From Pusillimonas noertemannii (GTDB lineage Bacteria > Pseudomonadota > Gammaproteobacteria > Burkholderiales > Burkholderiaceae_B): 64,000 nt of DNA. This document shows, in pieces, positions 5,567-60,714 of this stretch (its first letter is position 1; each line of letters starts with the position of its first letter). The notes beneath the pieces are model-generated. The model had not been told where the DNA came from and searched no databases. It worked only from the letters and a program-made list of their open reading frames with translations. Made by a program: the position numbers and the translations under genes. The DNA lies in the NCBI RefSeq assembly GCF_003096595.1, contig NZ_QEKO01000003.1:372001-436000 (forward strand). Direction: 5' to 3'.

Positions 5567-6316
5567 ATGACAAAAAATCAACGCCTCGACACCCAGACGG
5601 CCCGGGTAGTGGTTGGCCTGCGTGACATGATTATGAAAGGCGAGCTGCGGGCGGGCGAACGCCTGGTCGAGGCGGCGCTGTCCGATCGCCTGCAGGCCTC
5701 GCGCACGCCGGTCAGGTCGGCCCTGCTCACGCTCGAGCAACAGGGGCTGGTCGAGCGGCTTCGGGGCGGCGGGTACGCCGTGCGTGCGTATACCGCCCGT
5801 GAAATCGCCGAGGCGATTTCGGTCCATGCCTGCCTTGAAGGCATGGCGGCGCGGCTGGTGGCCGAAAAAGGCGTGTCGCGGGGGCTGTCGAACCGCTTGC
5901 AGGCCTGTCTCGAAGAAGGCGACCGCATCGTGGCCGTCGGAAAGCTCAGCATGGAAGACATCGCGGCCTACCTGGCCAACAATGTCCGCTTTCATGGCCT
6001 GATCGTCGACGCGGCCGACAACCAGGTGCTTGGGCAGTCGCTGAAATTCCTCGATCGCATACCGTTCGCGGCCGCCGGCGGCATGCTGCCCTTTCATTCG
6101 ACGCGCGACGATTGCGACGAGGCCATGCGCTTCGCGCAACGGCAGCATCACTCGCTGGTCGAGGCGCTGCGCAACGGGCAGGGTGCCCGGGCACAGGCGC
6201 TGGCCGAAGAGCACCGGCAGATCGCCCTGTTCAATCTGCAGCATGCCACCCAGCACGCCGAAATCGCCGTCGGCATATCCGATGCGCTGCCGGTGCTGCG
6301 CATGGCCTCGCTTTAA
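5567..6316 (+). CDS. GntR-family transcriptional regulator with FCD ligand-binding domain
   Basis: This 249-residue protein has an N-terminal winged helix (about residues 8-75, with the GntR signature ALSDRLQASRTPVRSALLTLEQQGLVERL). An all-helical FCD domain with metal-binding histidine candidates (FHGLIV, QHHSLVEAL) follows. The frame is open far upstream, but the ATG at 5567 starts exactly at the winged helix and follows the AT-rich promoter, so I reject the longer form. It precedes a complete Liv-type importer on the same strand and probably represses it or itself in response to an organic acid. Confidence 0.87.
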   Translation: MTKNQRLDTQTARVVVGLRDMIMKGELRAGERLVEAALSDRLQASRTPVRSALLTLEQQGLVERLRGGGYAVRAYTAREIAEAISVHACLEGMAARLVAEKGVSRGLSNRLQACLEEGDRIVAVGKLSMEDIAAYLANNVRFHGLIVDAADNQVLGQSLKFLDRIPFAAAGGMLPFHSTRDDCDEAMRFAQRQHHSLVEALRNGQGARAQALAEEHRQIALFNLQHATQHAEIAVGISDALPVLRMASL

Positions 6317-8598: not shown

Positions 8599-9509
8599 AA
8601 TCGTTTCTGCCCGCCGTCCTCATCAGCGGAGCGGTGCTGGCCCTTGGGCCCTGGCTGCTGCCGGAGTTCTGGGTCTCGCTGCTGATGACCTGCCTGATGT
8701 ACGTGGTGCTGGCCGTCAGCTGGTCCATGTTCAGCGGCGCCACCCGCTATCTTTCGCTGGCCTCCACGGCCCTGTTCGGGCTGGGCGCCTATACCACCGC
8801 CTGGGGCTATGAAATCCTGCCCTGGCCGTTGCTCATCCTAGTCGGCGCCATGGTGTCGGCGGCGTTTGCCGCGGTGCTGGGCGCCGCGGTGCTGCACCTG
8901 CGCGGCACCTACTTCGCCATTCTTACCTTCGGAATGGGCGAGCTGGTCAAGCACACCATCACCTATATTGAAAAAAGCGCTTTCGGCACGGTGGGGCGGG
9001 TGATCATCGACGTGCCTTCGAACGAGGCCGTCTACTGGACTGTGCTGGTACTGGCCCTGATCACCGTCGTCGCCTTCAAGCTTGTGGCCGACTCGCGCCT
9101 GGGGCTGGCCATGCGCGGCATCGGCCAGGACGAACAGCGCGCCGCCACCTTCGGCGTAAACACGCGCCGCATCAAGGTCATCGGCTTTGCGCTCAGCGCC
9201 GCCTTTGCCGGCGCGGTGGGGGCCGCAATGGCCGTGCGCTGGACATACATCGATCCGCACACCGCCTTCAACCCGCTCATCGGCTTCCAGACCGTTCTCA
9301 TTGCGATGGTCGGGGGCGCATCGACCCTACGTGGACCGGTGATCGCGGCGGTGGCGCTTAGCGTGCTGTCCGACGTGCTGCGGCTGAACTTCCCTTATTT
9401 CTATCTGATACTGCTGGGCACACTGCTTATCCTCAGCGTGCTCTTCATGCCGCGCGGCATCGCGGCGGTCAATTGGGGCAAGTTTCTGGGACGGAGGCAA
9501 GCGCGATGA
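8595..9509 (+). CDS. livM: ABC transporter permease, LivM family
   Basis: This is a 304-residue second permease of the importer. It shows several hydrophobic helices, the LivM pattern GATRYLSLASTALFGLGAYTTAW, and the loop FGVNTRRIKVIGFALSAAFAG around residues 190-210. It overlaps both neighbours by ATGA, so translation is coupled with LivH before it and the ATPase after it. It would form a heterodimeric channel with the LivH protein. Confidence 0.9.
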   Translation: MKSFLPAVLISGAVLALGPWLLPEFWVSLLMTCLMYVVLAVSWSMFSGATRYLSLASTALFGLGAYTTAWGYEILPWPLLILVGAMVSAAFAAVLGAAVLHLRGTYFAILTFGMGELVKHTITYIEKSAFGTVGRVIIDVPSNEAVYWTVLVLALITVVAFKLVADSRLGLAMRGIGQDEQRAATFGVNTRRIKVIGFALSAAFAGAVGAAMAVRWTYIDPHTAFNPLIGFQTVLIAMVGGASTLRGPVIAAVALSVLSDVLRLNFPYFYLILLGTLLILSVLFMPRGIAAVNWGKFLGRRQAR

Positions 9510-11695: not shown

Positions 11696-12745
11696 ATGTT
11701 CCCGAAAAACACCTGGTATGTAGCCTGTACCCCGGACGAAATCGAATCCAAGCCGCTGGGACGGCAGATCTGCGGCGAGCGCATCGCGTTCTATCGCGGC
11801 CACGAAGGCAAGGTGTGCGCGGTCGAAGATTTCTGCCCCCATCGCGGCGCAGCGCTGTCGCTGGGCTATGTAGACGGCGGCAACCTGGTGTGCGGCTATC
11901 ACGGTCTGGTCATGGGCTGCGACGGCAAGGTGGTTTCCATGCCCATGCAGCGTGTCGCGGGCTTTCCCTGTGTCAAAAGCTATCCCGTCATCGAGCGCTA
12001 TGGCTTTATCTGGGTCTGGCCGGGCGATGCGGCCCAGGCCGACGAGTCGCTTCTGCCTCATCTCGAGTGGGCCGAAAGCCCCGAGTGGGCATACGGGGGC
12101 GGCCTGTACCATATCAATTGCGATTACCGCCTGATGATCGACAACCTCATGGATCTCACTCACGAGACCTATGTGCACACCACCAGCATCGGCCAGGACG
12201 AAATCGACGAATCGCCCGTGCATACCAAGGTCGAGGGCGACACCGTCATTACCAGCCGCTACATGGAAAACATCATGGCGCCCCCGTTCTGGCGCGCGGC
12301 TCTGCGCTACAACGACCTGGCCGATGACGTTCCGGTCGATCGCTGGCAGATCTCCCGCTTTACGCCGCCCAGCCATATTCTGATCGACGTCGGGGTGGCG
12401 CATGCGGGCAAGGGTGGCTTCGAGGCCGACCCGGCCCACAAGGCCGCGGCCATCGTGGTTGATTTCATCACGCCCGAAACCGAGACCTCTCATTGGTACT
12501 TCTGGGGCATGGCGCGCAACTTCAAACCCAACGATCCGGAGCTTACCAAGGCAATCCGCGACGGACAGGGTAAAATATTCGGCGAGGATCTCGAAGTCCT
12601 GGAAGCGCAGCAGCGCAACCTCCGGGCAAATCCCGACCGCCGACTGCTCATGCTAAACATCGATACGGGTGGCGTACAATCGCGCCGCATCCTGGATCGC
12701 CTGGTGCAGGCCGAGCAGCAGCAAGCCACCGCCGAGCCCGCCTGA
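11696..12745 (+). CDS. vanA: Vanillate O-demethylase oxygenase subunit
   Basis: This 349-residue Rieske non-haem iron oxygenase removes the methyl group of vanillate as formaldehyde, giving protocatechuate. The Rieske cluster ligands are C47/H49 and C66/H69 (CPHR and CGYHG). The mononuclear iron site is DNLMDLTHETYVH with H156 and H161. The opening words MFPKNTWYVACTPDEI are typical of VanA. It is followed 76 bases later by vanB, its reductase, and then by a Liv-type importer. A second VanA-like gene at 58721-59758 lacks such a partner. Confidence 0.92.
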   Translation: MFPKNTWYVACTPDEIESKPLGRQICGERIAFYRGHEGKVCAVEDFCPHRGAALSLGYVDGGNLVCGYHGLVMGCDGKVVSMPMQRVAGFPCVKSYPVIERYGFIWVWPGDAAQADESLLPHLEWAESPEWAYGGGLYHINCDYRLMIDNLMDLTHETYVHTTSIGQDEIDESPVHTKVEGDTVITSRYMENIMAPPFWRAALRYNDLADDVPVDRWQISRFTPPSHILIDVGVAHAGKGGFEADPAHKAAAIVVDFITPETETSHWYFWGMARNFKPNDPELTKAIRDGQGKIFGEDLEVLEAQQRNLRANPDRRLLMLNIDTGGVQSRRILDRLVQAEQQQATAEPA

Positions 12746-12821: not shown

Positions 12822-13778
12822 ATGAGTCAACTCACCGTTAAAGTAGTCAATAAGGTGCAGGAAGCCGAGGAGATAGTCAGTCTGGAGCTGGCTAGTGTTG
12901 ATGGCAAACCTCTTCCTTCCTTCAGCGCCGGCGCCCATATCGACGTGCATATTCGCGACGGGCTCATCCGCCAGTACTCCCTGCTCAATGATTCGGCCGA
13001 ACAGCATCGCTATGTAATCGGCGTGCTGCGCGACCCCGAGTCGCGCGGCGGCTCCATTGCCGTGCACGACGACATCAATCAGGGCGATACCATCCAGATC
13101 AGTTCGCCCAAGAACCACTTCGAACTCGTCCAGGCCAAGCGCACCCTGTTGTTCGCCGGCGGCATCGGGGTCACCCCCATCCTGTGCATGGCGCGCCGTC
13201 TCAGCCATATCGGCGCCGATTTCGAAATGCACTACAACTCCCGCTCTCCCGAGCGCATGGCCTTCCGCGAGGCCATCAGCAACGCGGCGTTTGCCGACAA
13301 GGTGCATTTCCACTTCGACAATGGCGAAGACAGCCAGAAGCTCGACCTGGCCCCCTTGCTGGCCAACCCGCAGGCCGACACCCACTTGTACGTGTGCGGC
13401 CCCACGGGCTACATCGACTTCGTCGTCAATACCGCCAAGCAGGCGGGCTGGCCTTCCGACCACGTGCACCTCGAGTACTTCGGCGCCGCCGAAGTCGACA
13501 CCAGCGGCGACACCTCGTTCGAGGTCAAGATCGCCAGCACCGGCCAGGTCTTTGCCATTCCGGCAGACAAGCCCATCACGCAGGTGCTCGATGAAGCCGG
13601 CGTCTTTATCCCCGTGTCATGTGAAGAAGGCGTTTGCGGCACCTGCCTGACCCGTGTGCTCGAAGGCACGCCCGACCACCGCGATCTTTATCTCACCGAC
13701 GCCGAGCACGAGGCCAACGATCAATTCACGCCGTGCTGCTCGCGCTCCAAGAGCCCCCTGCTGGTGCTTGATATTTAA
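12822..13778 (+). CDS. vanB: Vanillate O-demethylase reductase subunit
   Basis: This 318-residue reductase passes electrons from NAD(P)H through FMN and a plant-type 2Fe-2S cluster to VanA. Visible in order are the flavin-binding RQYSLLND (50-57), the nucleotide-binding GGIGVTPI (113-120) and CGPTGYID (192-199), and the ferredoxin ligands C267, C272, C275 and C305. The ATG at 12822 begins the family's usual N-terminus; the frame is open upstream, but that part lies in vanA and the gap. It is the only oxygenase reductase in the window and could also serve other Rieske oxygenases. Confidence 0.92.
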   Translation: MSQLTVKVVNKVQEAEEIVSLELASVDGKPLPSFSAGAHIDVHIRDGLIRQYSLLNDSAEQHRYVIGVLRDPESRGGSIAVHDDINQGDTIQISSPKNHFELVQAKRTLLFAGGIGVTPILCMARRLSHIGADFEMHYNSRSPERMAFREAISNAAFADKVHFHFDNGEDSQKLDLAPLLANPQADTHLYVCGPTGYIDFVVNTAKQAGWPSDHVHLEYFGAAEVDTSGDTSFEVKIASTGQVFAIPADKPITQVLDEAGVFIPVSCEEGVCGTCLTRVLEGTPDHRDLYLTDAEHEANDQFTPCCSRSKSPLLVLDI

Positions 13779-51905: not shown

Positions 51906-52817
51906 CTAAAACTGATAGAGCTCAGTGGGGTTGTCAACGAATATGCGATTGCGCGTGGATTCGTCCGGCACCCAGGTTGTCATCAGGTCAAGCAAGTCTG
52001 TCGTATTGGGCATCCGGCCTTTGAAAGACACGTGAGGCCAGTCGCTTGCCCACACCAACCTGTCGGGACGACTCGCCACCAGGGCTTGTACATACGGAAG
52101 CATGTCGAGGTAGGGCGGCGGCTCATGAGACATGCGATATCCGCACGAAAGCTTGACCCAGCACCGTCCTGTGCCGACAAGGCGTAATAGGGTCTGGAAA
52201 CCTGGCTGGGCCACGCCCCGTTCCGGCCGTATTGACCCGATGTGGTCGATTACGATATCGGTAGGCAGGCTCATCAGCACTTCTTCCATCTGTGCAAGAG
52301 GCGCCTGCCCGCCGTCGTCCATGACATGCAGTTGTACATGCCAACCCAATGGTGCGATCTTGCGAGCCAAAAGCGGCATTTCTTCTATTGGCACGGCGCC
52401 TGCGTGGCCTATGTTGTAACGAACACCTCGCACGCCGCGATGGTGGAGTTGGCGTAGGTCGGATTCCGGAATATCCGCTCTTAATGCCACGATTACGCGC
52501 GTGGGTATGCCGAGTTCGTCAGCGGCGTCCAGGTGCCTGGAGTTATCTGTGCCATAGCCGCTGGGCTGGACCAGTACGGCGCGCTCCACACCCAGCGTAT
52601 CCGCAAGCCGGCGCAAGGTAGCGGGCAGTGCTTCCGGAACATCGAACGAGCGGGTATTGGCAACCTGGTACTTTGATTCAGGCCCATATACATGAACATG
52701 GCAGTCTGTCGTGCCCGGAGGGCAGTGCAGCAGAGGCATGCGCGGATCCGGATCGGGCGGCTGGCATAACGGCAACGCATCCGCCCGGAAATCTTGGCCC
52801 GAAGCCTGATTGCTCAT
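51906..52817 (-). CDS. Amidohydrolase-superfamily lactonase, LigI-like
   Basis: This is a 303-residue TIM-barrel metal hydrolase. The first metal motif is TDCHVHVYGP (H40, H42), later VIDHIGS, and the active-site aspartate is in VWASDWPH. The protein follows the order of 2-pyrone-4,6-dicarboxylate lactonase LigI (VQPSGYGTDN, RGVRGVRYNI, GWHVQLHV). It is probably a lactonase or decarboxylase on a ring-derived acid. The ATG at 52817 overlaps the cupin stop (ATGA). No protocatechuate 4,5-dioxygenase is encoded nearby, so the substrate need not be the LigI one. Confidence 0.82.
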   Translation of the reverse strand: MSNQASGQDFRADALPLCQPPDPDPRMPLLHCPPGTTDCHVHVYGPESKYQVANTRSFDVPEALPATLRRLADTLGVERAVLVQPSGYGTDNSRHLDAADELGIPTRVIVALRADIPESDLRQLHHRGVRGVRYNIGHAGAVPIEEMPLLARKIAPLGWHVQLHVMDDGGQAPLAQMEEVLMSLPTDIVIDHIGSIRPERGVAQPGFQTLLRLVGTGRCWVKLSCGYRMSHEPPPYLDMLPYVQALVASRPDRLVWASDWPHVSFKGRMPNTTDLLDLMTTWVPDESTRNRIFVDNPTELYQF

Positions 52818-53329
52818 TCGAACCACCTGTCGTCATGCAGTTCGTACGGCGTTTCCTTGTTTTTTTCAGAGTATCCGTCGAAGGGCTGGTTGTCGATATC
52901 GATACGCGCCAGTATGTCCGCGTTGGGGTCCAGTGCTGCGCCGACGCGCAGCATGACCAAGGGCTCGTCTTCTTTGGCGGTGAAACGATAGAACGCGCCG
53001 CTGGGAACGAGCACACAGTCGTTTTTACCTACCTCGCGTCGCTCGTCTCTGGGTCCGTAGAAGACGGCGCCTCCCTGCAGCACCACAAACACGTGATCTT
53101 CGTTCGTATGGGCGTGGATTTCATTTTCGCCGCCGCTGGCATATGTCTTCAGCACGACATTCATGTATTTCGACGCACCCAGAACTTGGTTCGTGCGGCC
53201 TACTTTGGGCAATTTCGCACGTATGTGGAAGAAGCTGGGGGTGGTCTTCTGGGCCATGCGCCGCATGGCTTCGTCCCACTCTGCTGCGCTGTTCGCGATG
53301 GGCGCCAAAGTTGTTTCTGTGCTGTCCAT
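52814..53329 (-). CDS. Single-domain cupin protein
   Basis: This is a 171-residue cupin. Motif 1 is GGENEIHAHTNEDHVFVVLQGG (H72, H74, H79) and motif 2 is GKNDCVLVPSGAFYRFTA, in which the usual second histidine is replaced by Phe/Tyr. It may bind a metal and act as a dioxygenase or isomerase, or it may sense or sequester ligand. It is the first gene of the eight-gene operon divergent from the LysR gene. Confidence 0.8.
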   Translation of the reverse strand: MDSTETTLAPIANSAAEWDEAMRRMAQKTTPSFFHIRAKLPKVGRTNQVLGASKYMNVVLKTYASGGENEIHAHTNEDHVFVVLQGGAVFYGPRDERREVGKNDCVLVPSGAFYRFTAKEDEPLVMLRVGAALDPNADILARIDIDNQPFDGYSEKNKETPYELHDDRWFE

Positions 53330-53411: not shown

Positions 53412-53427
53412 GATATTTGCTAATATC
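53412..53427. promoter_or_regulatory. Candidate LysR-binding palindrome in the divergent cupin/lysR promoter
   Basis: GATATT-TGCT-AATATC (perfect six-base arms, four-base spacer) contains a T-N11-A core, the classical LysR-box form. It lies about 40 bases before the LysR start and about 85 bases before the cupin start, inside the AT-rich divergent gap. Confidence 0.5.
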
Positions 53428-53464
53428 AAACAAGACTATTTTGTCTATTCGATGCATCGAAAAA

Positions 53465-54376
53465 ATGAATACAGAAAAGATGGATTTGAATCTGCTATTG
53501 GAGTTCGAGGCGCTCTTCGAAACCCGAAGCGTTACGAAGGCCAGCGAGCTTCTTGGCATCAGCCAGCCGTCAATGAGTCACGCCCTTGGGAAAATGAGAG
53601 AGGCGTTCAACGACCCTTTATTCGTCAGAGTCAAGAACGAGATGCAGCCAACGCCTCGTGCGCTGGCTATCAGTGGCCCCATCCATAGAACACTCGAACT
53701 GGCGCGAAACCAGATATTTCGAAGCCACGAGTTCGTGCCAGGACGAGCCAACAAGACATTTATTCTGTGTATGACCGATTTGGGGGCAGCTTCCTACTTG
53801 CCTCAGATTGTCAATGTCGTGAACAAGCATGCACCCGGCGTGCAGATTCGAACCATATCCCCCACAATTGAAAAGCAAACAGAGTGGCTGGAGTCCGGAT
53901 CGGTTGATCTGGCGATCGGCTATTTTCCGGACATTACGACCGCGGGCGTTTTTCAGCAGCACTTGCTGAGCAATACGGGCTTCACTTGTATAGCCAATAT
54001 TGATAACCCTTACATAGAAAATCGTATCTGCACCATGGACAGTTTCTTGAGCGCGCCGCACGTTTCGGTTCGAACCGAAGGGCGTAGCCAAGAGGTGATC
54101 GAACAGGCGATGAGCCGCCTACATATATATCGGCGCATAACCTTGACGGTGCCGCATTACTTGAGCCTATTGACGTTGGTTGCCAACACAGAGCTCATGG
54201 CCGTGATTCCGAACGATCTTGTGCCAGCCTTCGAGGCGCAAAAAAACATTGCGGTGTATCCACTTCCGTTTCCGAGCCCCCGCGTCGAGATCAAGCAGAT
54301 ATGGCATCAGAAATTCCATTTTGACGCCGCCAGCCAGTGGATCAGGGAAATGGTCAGGCAAGCGTTGCAGAAGTGA
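53465..54376 (+). CDS. LysR-family transcriptional regulator
   Basis: This is a 303-residue regulator with an N-terminal winged helix (DLNLLLEFEALFETRSVTKASELLGISQPSMSHALGKMREAF) and a type 2 periplasmic-binding effector domain. The N-terminal sequence resembles the NodD/NahR/LinR branch, common for aromatic-catabolism regulators. The ATG at 53465 is preferred; an ATG five codons later (53480) is possible. It is divergent from the cupin-TRAP operon and probably activates it when its aromatic inducer is present. Confidence 0.88.
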   Translation: MNTEKMDLNLLLEFEALFETRSVTKASELLGISQPSMSHALGKMREAFNDPLFVRVKNEMQPTPRALAISGPIHRTLELARNQIFRSHEFVPGRANKTFILCMTDLGAASYLPQIVNVVNKHAPGVQIRTISPTIEKQTEWLESGSVDLAIGYFPDITTAGVFQQHLLSNTGFTCIANIDNPYIENRICTMDSFLSAPHVSVRTEGRSQEVIEQAMSRLHIYRRITLTVPHYLSLLTLVANTELMAVIPNDLVPAFEAQKNIAVYPLPFPSPRVEIKQIWHQKFHFDAASQWIREMVRQALQK

Positions 54377-54484: not shown

Positions 54485-55474
54485 TCAGATTTTTACGGTC
54501 TCATAGGTTGAGGGATGAAAAATTTCATCTACGCTCATAAGACGGTGCGACAGTCCTTGTCCGTGGTGATGCCGCACGAAGGCTTCCAGAGTCTTGCGGT
54601 TGGGTGAGACCCCATACGACCAGTAGTCTTCGCCCATCAGCGATTTGGCTGCCTTCAGCTGTTCTTCGACGAAGGGTAGCGTGACTTTCGTCGCGGACGT
54701 GTCCGCCAGTTGCTTGAGCGCCCTGGACTTGGCTTGTTCGAACGCTTTGTATGCCGCATTGGCCAGCCATGGATGCTGCTCCAACAGCGGCTTGCGAATG
54801 CCCACCACATGCATGATGGGAAAAATCCCGGTGCGCTTGAAGTAGTCTTTGGCGGTCGCCGTCGGGTCAGGAAATAGCCAGCCCACATTGGGATTTCTGG
54901 AGGCGGCTCCGGCAGGAGGGCGGGGCGCGATGAACCCGTCCAGTTCACCATCGCTCAGCATCTGGGATATTGTCTTCCCTTCGGGCGCATTCTCCAGCCG
55001 GATGCCTTCCGGCAATTGGAGCTTGATTTTTTCGGGCCTGCCCGGTTCTTCGATACCTCCACGTACCCAAGTGACACTCGACGGGGCGATGCCATAGTCG
55101 TCTTCCAGAAGCGCCCGCGCCCAGACGATCGCGGTCAACTGATATTCTGGGATTCCTATGCGTTTCCCTTTTAGATCTTCCGGCCGTTTTATAAGGTCGG
55201 TGCGGACGTAAATGGAAGTGTGGCGAAACGCACGCGATAAGAAAACGGGAATCGCGACATAGTCGTTTTGCCCCTGTGACGCCTTGACCAGATAGCTGGA
55301 AAACGACATTTCGCTGATGTCGAACTCCTTGTTTCTGAACGCGCGAAAGAATATTTCTTCGGGTGATAGTGTCATGTACACAGGATCGACCCCGTCGATC
55401 TGCACGTTTCCATCCAGCAACGCACGCGTACGATCATAGTCGCCCAAGGCGACGGACAATTGCAGCTTGGACAA
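54485..55474 (-). CDS. 4,5-dihydroxyphthalate decarboxylase-like protein (NMT1 fold)
   Basis: This is a 329-residue cytoplasmic protein of the Pht5 family, which removes one carboxylate of 4,5-dihydroxyphthalate to give protocatechuate. The start KLQLSVALGDYDRTRALLDG, FDISEMSFSSYLVKASQG and KGKRIGIPEYQLTAIVWARALLEDDYGI are family words. It is often mis-annotated as an ABC binding protein, but it has no signal peptide. AAGGAG precedes the ATG, and the oxygenase gene ends one base before this start. With the dioxygenase and dehydrogenase it makes a complete phthalate-to-protocatechuate core. A close phthalate analogue is possible. Confidence 0.85.
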   Translation of the reverse strand: MSKLQLSVALGDYDRTRALLDGNVQIDGVDPVYMTLSPEEIFFRAFRNKEFDISEMSFSSYLVKASQGQNDYVAIPVFLSRAFRHTSIYVRTDLIKRPEDLKGKRIGIPEYQLTAIVWARALLEDDYGIAPSSVTWVRGGIEEPGRPEKIKLQLPEGIRLENAPEGKTISQMLSDGELDGFIAPRPPAGAASRNPNVGWLFPDPTATAKDYFKRTGIFPIMHVVGIRKPLLEQHPWLANAAYKAFEQAKSRALKQLADTSATKVTLPFVEEQLKAAKSLMGEDYWSYGVSPNRKTLEAFVRHHHGQGLSHRLMSVDEIFHPSTYETVKI

Positions 55475-55475
55475 T

Positions 55476-56801
55476 TTATGCTCCTTGTATCTGGGCTGAG
55501 TGATTGGCTTGCTTGTTATCCTGCGCGGAGGTGTCCCAGACGGGGTTCACCTCGAACGATCTCCAGTCGGACCCTTTAGGCACCATTGTCTGGAAGGAGC
55601 AGATTTCTTTGGGAATGGCCCTGGCCCCCGTGCCGATGGCTTCGCCGCTTTCCTGGAAAGTACGTACGGCCTTCAGCATCTGCTTGCGGAACTCAACGAC
55701 GGCAATGTCACTCGCGCCAAGGTGGTCTGCGCTTCGATTCGTGATGGCGCCCATGGTGCACCACATGGCCACGTCCTGGTTTGGAAAGCCTGTTATTCCG
55801 GTGAAATTTCCTGCTTTCATGGCTTCGCGATCTTGCCAGAAATTATTCTCGCGATTGCGCAAGGGGCGATAGGCATGGTCGAGATCCTCGCCCACGGTCT
55901 GCCCAAGGAACTTGCGCCATGCCGCGGTGTCAGGCGTTTGTTTCGGATGCCCCCAGGCGATGAAGTAAAACACGGTCGTCGTATCGTCCGCGGGAACATT
56001 GATATTGGCGACGTTATACAAGTTATTGGGCGGTATGAGTGCGGTTGCAGGGGCCACAAACACGGTTGACCGTACATAATCGTTGAGATCGGCATTGTGT
56101 ATGGGCTTGCGGATGGCCGCATAGCGAAAGCCGTAGGACCCACGATCGATTTGCATCCGGGGCGCCTTGTCGTTCGATGGCCGGAGCCAAGTGCTTTCAG
56201 TGGCTTCGGCGCCCGCCGCATCGGCCGTGGGAACCATATCCGACGAATGCAGACTCGAGCTATGAGCCGAATCGATTGCGCCCTCTAGCACCTGGGCCCA
56301 ATTACAAGGCAGCACGACTTTGGCGATGGTGACTTTGGTATCGGCTGTCGGCGCCCAGGCTGGCGGCTGAAACTCGGTCATGGTCTCGGGCGGTCCCATG
56401 TACGCCCATACTATGCCGCCCCATTCCTTGGCGGGGTAGGCGGGGTGCTTGATTCCTGTGGCCATGCGGTTGCCGGCGGGCTCCGAAACCATTTCAAGAA
56501 TGTTGCCCTGGATGTCGAATTTCCAGCCGTGGTAAAGGCAACGTAGACCGTCTTCTTCATTGCGTCCGAGCACCAGCGAGGCTCCCCGATGCGGACAATG
56601 CTCGCCGATTACGCCCACGCGGCCCGACGTGTTGCGAAATACCACCAGTTCTTCGCCGAATGCCTGCGCCCGAACCGGTGTGCCATCGGGCTCCATGACT
56701 TCTTCGATCAAACAGATCGGCGTCCAATGTCGCCGCATCAATTGCCCCATGGGTGCATTGCCTGTGACACGGCATAAAAGGTCGTTTTCCTCGGGGGTCA
56801 T
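55476..56801 (-). CDS. Rieske oxygenase, phthalate 4,5-dioxygenase-like alpha subunit
   Basis: This is a 441-residue ring-hydroxylating oxygenase. The Rieske ligands are C69/H71 (CPHRGAS) and C88/H91 (CLYHGWKFD). The iron site is in EGAIDSAHSSSLHSSD. PMGQLMRRHWTPICLIEEV and GRNEEDGLRCLYHGWKFD are typical of the phthalate dioxygenase (Pht3/OphA2) group, which works as alpha subunits only with a separate reductase. That reductase is not encoded next to it. AGGAG precedes the ATG. It is divergent from the dehydrogenase gene across two operator-like palindromes. Confidence 0.87.
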   Translation of the reverse strand: MTPEENDLLCRVTGNAPMGQLMRRHWTPICLIEEVMEPDGTPVRAQAFGEELVVFRNTSGRVGVIGEHCPHRGASLVLGRNEEDGLRCLYHGWKFDIQGNILEMVSEPAGNRMATGIKHPAYPAKEWGGIVWAYMGPPETMTEFQPPAWAPTADTKVTIAKVVLPCNWAQVLEGAIDSAHSSSLHSSDMVPTADAAGAEATESTWLRPSNDKAPRMQIDRGSYGFRYAAIRKPIHNADLNDYVRSTVFVAPATALIPPNNLYNVANINVPADDTTTVFYFIAWGHPKQTPDTAAWRKFLGQTVGEDLDHAYRPLRNRENNFWQDREAMKAGNFTGITGFPNQDVAMWCTMGAITNRSADHLGASDIAVVEFRKQMLKAVRTFQESGEAIGTGARAIPKEICSFQTMVPKGSDWRSFEVNPVWDTSAQDNKQANHSAQIQGA

Positions 56802-56848
56802 CTTTGTTTCTCCTGGTTGGCGTATGGCAGTATTGACTGCTCATAATG

Positions 56849-56894
56849 TTAGATATCTAATCTTCTTTAATGTAATATTATTAGATATCTAATA
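56849..56894. promoter_or_regulatory. Twin TTAGATATCTAA palindromes in the divergent phthalate-type promoter
   Basis: The identical 12-bp palindrome TTAGATATCTAA occurs at 56849-56860 and 56881-56892. The second extends to a 16-bp perfect palindrome, 56879-56894. Centres are 32 bp apart, three helical turns. The pair lies between the oxygenase (leftward) and dehydrogenase (rightward) genes. A MarR regulator is encoded just downstream at 58146 and is the likely binder. Confidence 0.65.
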
Positions 56895-56920
56895 TAAATT
56901 CAATATTCAGGATCCAGGCC

Positions 56921-58117
56921 ATGTCAAAAATTCCTATAGGAATAGGGGTCGTGGGGCTAGGGCGGGCTTTCGTACTTATGCTGCCCACCTTTGTGAAGGA
57001 CGATCGGGTAAGGCTGGTGGCGGCCGCCGACCCTCGGCCCCAAGCACGCGCGCGGTTCACTCAGGATTTTGGCGGCGCTTCGTACGAGACTATTGAGCAG
57101 CTATGCGCTGACCCCAATGTGGAACTCGTGTATATTGCTTCGCCGCATCAATTTCATGCCGAGCATGTCGAGATTGCCGCCGCCGCGGGCAAAGCGATGC
57201 TGGTCGAAAAGCCCATGGCTATCACGCTGGACGAATGCACGCGCATTGTGGACGTCGTCAGGCAAAGCAAGACGATCCTGGTCGTAGGACATTCGCACAG
57301 TTTCGACGGTCCGGTGCAGCATGCGGCAAGAGTGCTGGAGGCGGGCTCGTATGGACAAGTGCGGATGCTCAACGCGCTCAATTACACTGATTTCATGTAT
57401 CGCCCACGCCGACCGGAGGAACTGGATACCGCGCAGGGAGGAGGGGTGGTGTTCAGCCAAGCCGCGCATCAGGTCGACGTGGCCCGGGCGCTGCTGGGCG
57501 GCATGGTCGATTCGGTCATCGCCCGGACGGGACGATGGGACGAAAGCCGTCCTACTGAAGGTGCCTACGGCGCGATGCTCAACTTCGAAGGCGGTGCGTT
57601 CGCCATGTTGACATACAGCGGCTACGCTCACTATGACAGCGACGAACTCATGGAGGGCGTTGGCGAAATGGGTTTTCTCAAGGAGCGCTGCGGGCACGAG
57701 CAGGCGCGCCGGCGGCTGGCCAGGCTTGATTCCGTGGATGAAGGCCATCTCAAGCAGGAAAGCGGCTACGGTGGAGAGCATTATCGCGCCGACGACAGGC
57801 CTCCGGCGCCTTTCCATCAACATTTTGGCCACGCAGTGATATCGACCGATAAGGCGGACATCAGACTGACCCCCAGCGGCCTTATGATATATAGCGATCA
57901 CGAGCGTCATTTCGAGCCGACGCCTCATCGGCCCGTGCCACGCTGCGAAGTGATTGACGAGATCTGGAACGCATTGCGGCATGGGCGTGCTCCCATGCAC
58001 GATGCTCAATGGGCGCGGGCGACTACCGAGGTTTGCCTGGCCATGCTGGAATCAGGCCGAAGTGGGGCCGCCGTACCCATGAGGTTTCAGGTTCCGGCGT
58101 TATTCAGCGCAATTTGA
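56921..58117 (+). CDS. Gfo/Idh/MocA oxidoreductase, phthalate 4,5-cis-dihydrodiol dehydrogenase-like
   Basis: This is a 398-residue NAD(P)-dependent dehydrogenase. The Rossmann motif is GVVGLGRAF (9-17), the catalytic lysine region is EKPMA (96-100), and FDGPVQHAARV and GGGVVFSQAAHQVDVARALLGG follow. The start IGIGVVGLGRAFVLMLPTF and the length match Pht4-type enzymes, which oxidise the cis-dihydrodiol of phthalate to 4,5-dihydroxyphthalate. It is divergent from the matching oxygenase and followed by a MarR gene. Confidence 0.87.
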   Translation: MSKIPIGIGVVGLGRAFVLMLPTFVKDDRVRLVAAADPRPQARARFTQDFGGASYETIEQLCADPNVELVYIASPHQFHAEHVEIAAAAGKAMLVEKPMAITLDECTRIVDVVRQSKTILVVGHSHSFDGPVQHAARVLEAGSYGQVRMLNALNYTDFMYRPRRPEELDTAQGGGVVFSQAAHQVDVARALLGGMVDSVIARTGRWDESRPTEGAYGAMLNFEGGAFAMLTYSGYAHYDSDELMEGVGEMGFLKERCGHEQARRRLARLDSVDEGHLKQESGYGGEHYRADDRPPAPFHQHFGHAVISTDKADIRLTPSGLMIYSDHERHFEPTPHRPVPRCEVIDEIWNALRHGRAPMHDAQWARATTEVCLAMLESGRSGAAVPMRFQVPALFSAI

Positions 58118-58145: not shown

Positions 58146-58691
58146 ATGGACACTCAAAAATATCCTACGGCAGAGCGGAAAGACTGGCGCGACGCCATTC
58201 CTCAGGATCGTCTTGCTCATTTATTGAAAGATGCCCGAAGAGCGATGGAAAGAGCGCTGCAGATCCGCCTGATCGACCATTCGGTATCGTTCGGGCATTG
58301 GACGTTCTTGCGCATCTTGTGGGAGCACGATGGGCTCACGCAACGCGAGCTTTCCGAACTGGCGGGCATGGCGGCGCCAACCACGTTTGCGGCGATCAAT
58401 GCCATGGAGTCGCTGGGATACGTGAGCCGCAAGCAGAAGGCGGGCAACCGCAAGAACGTTTATGTGCACCTGACCGGCAAAGGCAAGGAGCTGAAGGCCA
58501 AACTGCTTCCGCTTGCGGAAGAAATCAACGCTATAGCGATTAATGAACTGGAGCTCGACGAGGTTCTGATCGCACGAAAAGTCCTGCTCAAGATCACCGC
58601 GAATCTCAACGCGTACGAGAATGAATTACTAGAGTCGGAGAATCGGCGTGTGCCTTCCACCCGCCAGTTGGGAAGGTTGTATACGGCCTAG
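58146..58691 (+). CDS. MarR-family transcriptional regulator
   Basis: This is a 181-residue winged-helix protein. The core is HWTFLRILWEHDGLTQRELSELAGMAAPTTFAAINAMESLGYVSRKQKAGNRKNVYVHLTGKGKEL, with recognition helix and wing. It lies 28 bases after the dehydrogenase on the same strand, so it is cotranscribed with it. It is the natural candidate to bind the twin palindromes at 56849-56894 and be released by a phthalate-type ligand. Confidence 0.88.
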   Translation: MDTQKYPTAERKDWRDAIPQDRLAHLLKDARRAMERALQIRLIDHSVSFGHWTFLRILWEHDGLTQRELSELAGMAAPTTFAAINAMESLGYVSRKQKAGNRKNVYVHLTGKGKELKAKLLPLAEEINAIAINELELDEVLIARKVLLKITANLNAYENELLESENRRVPSTRQLGRLYTA

Positions 58692-59758: not shown

Positions 59759-59835
59759 GCGAATTTCTCCTGCCATCTGGTTTTTAATAATGTAGAATCA
59801 TTTTAGCAGTTTTGATTTTTATCAGGCAATGTCAA
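59759..59835. promoter_or_regulatory. Divergent promoter region between the VanA-like gene and the IclR gene
   Basis: This short AT-rich gap contains AATG-TAGAAT-CATT (59789-59802), an imperfectly symmetric site that an IclR dimer could bind. TAGAAT inside it could also serve as a -10 box. Confidence 0.3.
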
Positions 59836-60714
59836 ATGACGAGCAAGACTAAATTTTCGGTTCAGCCGCGAACCAGTTCCTCAGCCGCCCGCGTCGCTTT
59901 GGTCAACGCAGAAGCAGCGGCTGTCGAGTCGGGCACCCGGAAGGGAATCCAATCTGTGGATGTGGGCTACAAGCTGCTGCATGCTTTGCAAGTCAGCGAT
60001 CGGCCCCTCAGCCTGACGGCGCTATCCGAGGCGACGGGCATGACTCCAAGCAAATGCCATGGTTATCTATCGAGTTTTATGCGTGTCGGCCTGATCGCGC
60101 AGAAAGAAAGCGGGGGCTTGTATGACCTGGGCCCGTCGGCACTGCAGTTGGGGCTCACTGCCCTGGAGCGTATCGACGCGCTGCAAGAAGCCCGTGAAGC
60201 GATGGTGCTGCTACGTGAACGTTTGCAAGAGACCATCGTGCTTTCCATATGGGGTAATCATGGCCCCACTATTGTCTACAAGCAGGAAGGACCGCGATGG
60301 TCGCCCTTGAGCGTGCGCGTGGGTACAGTGTTGCCGGTGCTTTCTGCGACGGGAATGGTGCTGCTATCTGGCCGGCAACGCGAGGCGGTCGACGCCCTGA
60401 TCACGAAGGAATGGGAAGGCACGCCTTCGGACAGTCCCTGGAAAGTCGATTCCGTCGAAGAAATTCACACGCTGCTTGAACGAATCCGTATCAAGCGAGT
60501 CGCCAAGGGACGCGGCAACATTTTCCCAGGTTATTCGGGTATTTGTTCTCCTATCTATGATCACGAGGGTAGTGTTTGTGCCGCTTTGATGGTAATGGGC
60601 GAAGTGCCCCAGTTTGACCGCAGTGAAAACGGATCAAATGCCGACATCTTGCGCCGTGCGGCCGAGGATGTCTCCCGCCGTATAGGATGGCGGGGCGGAA
60701 ATAACAAGAAATAA
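59836..60714 (+). CDS. IclR-family transcriptional regulator
   Basis: This is a 292-residue protein. After a 40-residue polar leader comes the winged helix (VGYKLLHALQVSDRPLSLTALSEATGMTPSKCHGYLSSFMRVGLIAQ) and a C-terminal IclR effector domain (VLPVLSATGMVLLSG, ICSPIYDHEGSVCAALMVMG). The ATG at 59836 is preferred to a TTG eight codons upstream. It is divergent from the VanA-like gene and 65 bases upstream of the SDR/aldehyde dehydrogenase pair. It may control both. Confidence 0.87.
   Translation: MTSKTKFSVQPRTSSSAARVALVNAEAAAVESGTRKGIQSVDVGYKLLHALQVSDRPLSLTALSEATGMTPSKCHGYLSSFMRVGLIAQKESGGLYDLGPSALQLGLTALERIDALQEAREAMVLLRERLQETIVLSIWGNHGPTIVYKQEGPRWSPLSVRVGTVLPVLSATGMVLLSGRQREAVDALITKEWEGTPSDSPWKVDSVEEIHTLLERIRIKRVAKGRGNIFPGYSGICSPIYDHEGSVCAALMVMGEVPQFDRSENGSNADILRRAAEDVSRRIGWRGGNNKK

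Follow-up and report, generated by a model that had tools for sequence, protein, structure and literature searches.

A known operator of the kind discussed here is that of SlyA, a MarR-family protein for which the consensus TTAGCAAGCTAA has been proposed (PMC5797941); this consensus does not appear in the main text of a second report (PMC6401476), which places W34 and H38 among the SlyA ligand sites. For phthalate isomers, the described regulators OphR (Rhodococcus DK17), IphR and TphR (Comamonas E6) belong to the IclR family, with motifs such as the OphR motif CGCGTACGCG (PMC8222616). MarR genes have also been reported in this setting, namely one named phtR beside the phthalate genes of Sphingobium yanoikuyae SHJ (PMC6051330) and one conserved beside the pht genes of Thalassospira (PMC9604089); the available text of these two reports defines no binding site for either protein. 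BpsR of Bordetella, again of MarR type, has 6-hydroxynicotinic acid as its ligand (PMC6837509). In the open-access literature we found no description of the operator considered here, although subscription papers may hold one, and no paper there has TTAGATATCTAA together with a MarR protein.

The 64,000-nucleotide stretch of Pusillimonas noertemannii DNA analyzed here (the window) contains two exact copies of the palindrome TTAGATATCTAA, at 56849–56860 and 56881–56892, which we call putative operators 1 and 2. Both lie in a 119-bp gap (56802–56920) flanked by an ATG on the reverse strand (56801) and an ATG on the forward strand (56921), operator 1 being 47 bp before the start of an oxygenase gene and operator 2 being 28 bp before that of a dehydrogenase gene. 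Their centers are 32 bp apart, or 3.05 turns at 10.5 bp, in agreement with the earlier note, which had described two identical 12-bp palindromes three helical turns apart; the span given there, 56849–56894, starts correctly and ends 2 bp beyond the second copy. An exact 12-mer search located TTAGATATCTAA nowhere else in the 4,203,487-bp genome and gave no hit for the reversed control. The shorter pattern TTAG-N4-CTAA occurs five times in the 4.2 Mb, compared with 24 occurrences of its reversed control; two of the five are those in the gap, and one lies beside a paralogous oxygenase/MarR/dehydrogenase module.

With up to two mismatches allowed, the window has two copies of TTAGATATCTAA against 0.36 expected, and as 6 of 100 shuffles reached two or more, the copy number by itself is unremarkable at this tolerance. 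The window holds 36 distinct perfect 12-bp palindromes, of which four occur twice, and only TTAGATATCTAA has its copies close together. Because the gap has a GC content of 32% within a window of 60%, chance was tested inside the gap. An AT-rich promoter gap can yield palindromes without function, and 1,453 of 20,000 dinucleotide shuffles of the gap contained some 12-bp palindrome at least once; the same palindrome appeared twice in only 6 of the 20,000, however, and TTAG-N4-CTAA was seen at least once in 105 and twice in none.

The genes on either side support the phthalate-type label that had been given to them. On the reverse strand, a Rieske oxygenase of phthalate type (55476–56801; Pfam LigXa_C and Rieske domains) matched three PDB entries with the title Rieske domain protein (7fjl, 7v25 and 7v28; E 1.3e-224) and one named as the alpha subunit of a putative phthalate 4,5-dioxygenase (7fhr; E 1.5e-65). 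A 4,5-dihydroxyphthalate decarboxylase of the ophC/pht5 type (54485–55474, same strand; PDB 9jp7, E 1.4e-163) begins 1 bp past the oxygenase stop. On the forward strand, the gene at 56921–58117 encodes a Gfo/Idh/MocA oxidoreductase according to Pfam, and its homologues recur near oxygenase and MarR genes; from its family and neighbors it is probably the phthalate cis-dihydrodiol dehydrogenase (ophB/pht4 type). The MarR-family regulator (58146–58691, forward strand; Pfam MarR) follows 28 bp past the dehydrogenase stop, in keeping with its earlier placement in a predicted rightward transcript. Oxygenase, decarboxylase and dehydrogenase together form an o-phthalate 4,5-dioxygenase cluster, the dehydrogenase by family and position only, and given the structure matches of the first two and the family of the third, the phthalate-type label is correct. 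Beside the cluster, no dioxygenase reductase was found; the nearest homologue in the window (42%), at 12825–13775, adjoins a VanA-like oxygenase (11702–12742) far from the phthalate genes.

If the palindromes matter for these genes, they should recur before the same genes elsewhere. We scanned the best 80 of 147 confirmed MarR-related stretches, with MarR identities of 54 to 71%, and could locate an oxygenase or reductase start in 71 of the 80; eight had no oxygenase or reductase match (L022, L028, L035, L049, L052, L074, L091 and L092) and one further locus was lost through the identity and gene-start limits. The 300 bp before an oxygenase or reductase start contained TTAG-N4-CTAA in 67 of these 71 loci, while the reversed motif was present in none and the best other of the 256 half-sites in 25. 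The four loci without it consist of L061, which has 0 bp upstream, and three clear misses: L015 and L032, where both MarR and oxygenase are present and the 300 bp upstream contain no TTAG-N4-CTAA, and L027, which has only TTATATATCTAA. The divergent oxygenase/dehydrogenase pair of the window, with nothing in between, was counted by eye on the map in nine of the 80 loci (L014, L033, L045, L046, L077, L079, L083, L088 and L090), and the gap carries TTAG-N4-CTAA in all nine, eight having one copy of exactly TTAGATATCTAA and L014 two copies of TTAGAGATCTAA. A search for the same site before homologous gene pairs, which the earlier note had put forward as a check, thus has a positive outcome, and the idea of one regulator serving both transcripts gains support from the conservation in the divergent pairs and in the larger set.

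For the oxygenase alone, 91 loci (the best 80 of 147 and 11 more) gave 75 upstream regions in 27 clusters, the clustering being meant to absorb the duplicates that the 91 include (L112 and L074, for example). The motif was found in 50 of the 75 regions and in 25 of the 27 clusters, a cluster being counted when at least half of its members had it, whereas the next half-site among the six best listed reached 16 regions and 1 cluster; TTAG and CTAA separated by a spacer other than four were found 0 to 1 times in these regions. In 45 of the 50 regions the nearest motif is 30 to 100 bp before the oxygenase start. The two remaining clusters are L106, which has only TTAGAGATATAA before the oxygenase, and a 22-member Caballeronia-type cluster, in which the reductase comes first and 21 of the 22 regions pass the joint oxygenase/reductase count, the motif being 70 bp before the leading reductase in L016. 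Such conservation of the half-sites already disfavors the reading of the pair as chance palindromes without function, which, together with the shuffles of the gap, we consider extremely improbable. Within 300 bp upstream of the other genes the motif is rare (dehydrogenase, 9 of 80; MarR gene, 2 of 87; decarboxylase, 0 of 40), and its place is therefore at the head of the transcript for the oxygenase or reductase. A second site, towards the rightward transcript, is present in some loci; in L072, for instance, the sites are at 5573 and 5691, and a reductase–dehydrogenase run starts at 5762.

By our count, a related sequence, TTCGATATCTAA, one base off the operator, stands at about position -200 relative to the MarR match in 23 of the 80 loci (best 80 of 147); it is found at L016:7790 and similarly placed in further loci of the Caballeronia type. 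A transporter-like ORF of L016, recognized by eye, points away from it on the other strand, and TTCGATATCTAA is perhaps a weaker operator for the transporter and the MarR gene itself.

The shape of the motif was derived from 66 distinct sites, in which the eight outer bases TTAG/CTAA are the search definition and the other positions are free. At the free positions, the base at -1 is C in 60 sites, the first middle base is A in 59 and the last T in 38, and the base after CTAA is G in 40; the remaining middle bases drift. Middles forming a perfect palindrome occur in 14 of the 66, compared with about 4 expected. Both sites of the window have the form of the SlyA-class operator, TTAG, four bases and CTAA, and neither has the usual C flank on either strand. 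The closest MarR homologue among the best 80 of 147 (71%) belongs to Eoetvoesiella caeni (L014), which keeps the 32-bp pair with both aligned copies altered alike, to TTAGAGATCTAA, and differs at one base in the stretch between them (56868–56880 of the window). A spacing of three turns was rejected as a general rule, since 32 bp recurs in that one locus and 33 bp in one Neptuniibacter plasmid locus (L122), while 68 to 209 bp separate the sites in 18 further regions that have two ahead of the oxygenase, and L086 has, elsewhere in the locus, two sites with a separation of 15 bp. The three-turn pairing is a local feature.

The motif is also carried by plasmids. An oxygenase homologue is present in 67 plasmid records, of which 15 make up our plasmid loci. 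Among the first 13 of these, 12 have TTAG-N4-CTAA at a cluster head, L118 and L122 being the two gammaproteobacterial ones; pCAR3 (L123) is the only one of the 13 in which none was found. The sphingomonad loci L123, L131 and L132 encode MarRs of 36 to 37% and have no motif before the oxygenase, although L132 has one ahead of a ferredoxin gene, at a distance of 11 bp. The plasmid phthalate locus L126 carries an exact TTAGCAAGCTAA, and that of T. lucentensis (L127) combines a 49% MarR with TTAGATATCTAA. No match to the window's MarR was found in the stretch fetched for four of the 12 motif-bearing loci (L121, L122, L124 and L125); the annotated MarR of L124 is cut at the stretch edge, and L125 has a LysR instead. 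The decarboxylase and dehydrogenase of that cluster, on an Acidovorax plasmid (L125:6328–11261), were matched in several pieces. A nadC gene (nicotinate-nucleotide diphosphorylase) is annotated within the stretches covered for 7 of the 15 plasmid loci (L115, L117, L123, L125, L127, L131 and L132).

In a search of 399 genomes from the order, 10 had the MarR (E ≤ 1e-25) and at least 8 had the oxygenase (E ≤ 1e-120), the 8 found being all among the 10; the oxygenase number is a lower bound, as that search missed the oxygenase of genome G002 (61%). The best MarR relatives in two congeners are 44% and 32% identical and show no paired pattern. The oxygenase matches in L098 and L100 (genomes G137 and G175) were reported with one in-frame TAG, which may be real or may be the natural stop lying within the aligned range.

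The protein at 58146–58691 has a MarR winged-helix domain (PF01047, E 1e-10, 41.8 bits against a cut-off of 24.6), and its AlphaFold2 model (mean pLDDT 87.0, pTM 0.73) is predicted to have the MarR fold. Nearly all of the 50 structure matches listed for the model are titled MarR family or carry the names of its members (SlyA, OhrR, HucR, MepR), and a few are titled only regulator; the model aligned to the SlyA–DNA complex 3q5f with a TM score of 0.87 by target length at about 20% identity. Assignment to a named NCBIfam MarR model failed, as none of the 10 listed, HpaR, OhrR and FabT included, was reached and the best score was 49.9 bits against 240. All 31 aligned sequences share residues W52 and R56, which in a comparison by spacing resemble W34 and H38 of SlyA. 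Judged by this spacing and by the alignment to 2fbh, W52 would correspond to SlyA W34, and one may speculate that an arginine in place of histidine would be favorable for a diacid like phthalate.

The sequence evidence makes this adjoining MarR very probably the protein for which the two palindromes are landing sites. Three other proteins could compete for them: the LysR at 53417–54376, the IclR at 59812–60714 and a MarR paralogue encoded elsewhere in the genome (G000:C2:625576). The phthalate cluster of L125 shows that the motif can stand with a LysR, one that is 56% identical to the window's, where no match to the window's MarR is seen; OphR, the phthalate regulator of Rhodococcus DK17, is of the IclR type (PMC8222616); and TTAGGTACCTAA lies upstream of the paralogous MarR (47%), within the module of that protein, so that cross-binding is conceivable. 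Against these points, a tblastn search at 1e-10 of the best 80 of 147 loci found homologues of the window's LysR in 1 of 80 (34%) and of its IclR in 0 of 80, by which both were rejected as conserved partners; the window's LysR is divergent to a cupin gene (52814–53329), which would be its more natural target, and the OphR motif is unlike TTAGATATCTAA. Identity with an IclR-type phthalate regulator was also rejected, the regulator being a MarR and its site unlike that of OphR. We consider binding by one of these other regulators unlikely.

Taking the adjoining MarR as the binding protein, we think it likely, with good though not full confidence, that it represses both divergent transcripts through the two operators and is released by phthalate or an early intermediate. 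One dimer would bind each TTAG-N4-CTAA, placing two dimers three turns from each other on one face of the DNA, where they would cover overlapping divergent promoters and keep both the leftward oxygenase–decarboxylase and the rightward dehydrogenase–MarR transcripts off; binding of phthalate or an early intermediate would take the dimer off the DNA and allow both transcripts to start. The candidate promoters are weak matches: for the rightward transcript TAGATA-17-TAATAT, with -35 from 56850 and -10 from 56873, and for the leftward one TTGAAT-17-TAATAT, with -35 from 56903 and -10 from 56880. The hexamers are partly inside the operators and therefore not independent of them; both candidates have counterparts at matching places in L014, and a stricter sigma-70 scan of 56700–57000 found no promoter. 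In this arrangement operator 1 would cover the -35 of the rightward promoter, the spacer of the leftward promoter would contain operator 2, and the AT-rich stretch at 56868–56880, aligned with L014, may be a -10 region shared by both promoters.

The same sites could instead be bound by the MarR as an activator or anti-silencer, as SlyA acts at some genes: with the same operator class, SlyA antagonizes H-NS at fimB and hlyE (PMC5797941) and counter-silences pagC (PMC6401476), and the low GC content of the gap counts in favor of such a role. The gap resembles, however, the divergent slyA–ydhIJK region, where the in vitro repression of both genes by SlyA is weakened by salicylate (PMC6401476), and sites near both start codons and over the candidate promoters would suit occlusion. 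Activation in place of simple repression therefore appears improbable to us. Under repression, the circuit would limit itself because marR is in the rightward transcript. Such autoregulation may apply in the window, and most strongly wherever marR closely trails the dehydrogenase; as the motif precedes the MarR gene in only 2 of 87 cases, control of marR is without direct support in most relatives.

The paralogous module in the same genome (L114:7834–11327, on G000:C2) encodes a Rieske oxygenase, a MarR and a Gfo/Idh/MocA protein that are 30, 47 and 39% identical to those of the window, with TTAGGTACCTAA at 9215 between oxygenase and MarR, and is probably another such switch for an aromatic acid. 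A single TTAGCTTGCTAA, the SlyA consensus on the other strand, is found between two ORFs at L129:1501 (G000:C1:718184 of the same genome), with no phthalate gene seen in the surrounding 3-kb stretch. o-Phthalate has its source in phthalate-ester plasticizers. We give about even odds that alpha-, beta- and some gammaproteobacteria sense o-phthalate mainly through this MarR clade, its code C-TTAG-A-NN-T-CTAA-G having spread with the genes on chromosomes and plasmids. If so, the fixed TTAG/CTAA with drifting middles, and the TTAGGTACCTAA of the paralogue, would point to a family of related switches that serve similar aromatic diacids. If the MarR has such a short and well-defined operator, the 66 distinct natural site contexts would allow an immediate test of how it reads DNA.

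Compared with the known systems, the locus is closest to SlyA and its slyA–ydhIJK region in combining a TTAG-N4-CTAA operator, a MarR-family protein and divergent genes (PMC5797941, PMC6401476); judged by its bases, the operator class of the window's palindromes is that of SlyA, and the inhibition of SlyA by salicylate (PMC6401476) would be the expected parallel for the predicted release by ligand. It differs from SlyA in a protein identity of about 20%, in a catabolic neighborhood in place of efflux and virulence genes, and in having two operators 32 bp apart. With Sphingobium phtR and the Thalassospira MarR it shares a MarR gene within an o-phthalate cluster (PMC6051330, PMC9604089). OphR, IphR and TphR are likewise regulators of phthalate-isomer catabolism but belong to another protein family and have other motifs (PMC8222616), and BpsR, a MarR repressor touching an aromatic-acid pathway and a structural match to our model (6pcp; PMC6837509), is about 20% identical and serves another pathway. 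The proposed switch is of an ordinary kind, and a description of its landing site was not found in the open-access literature.
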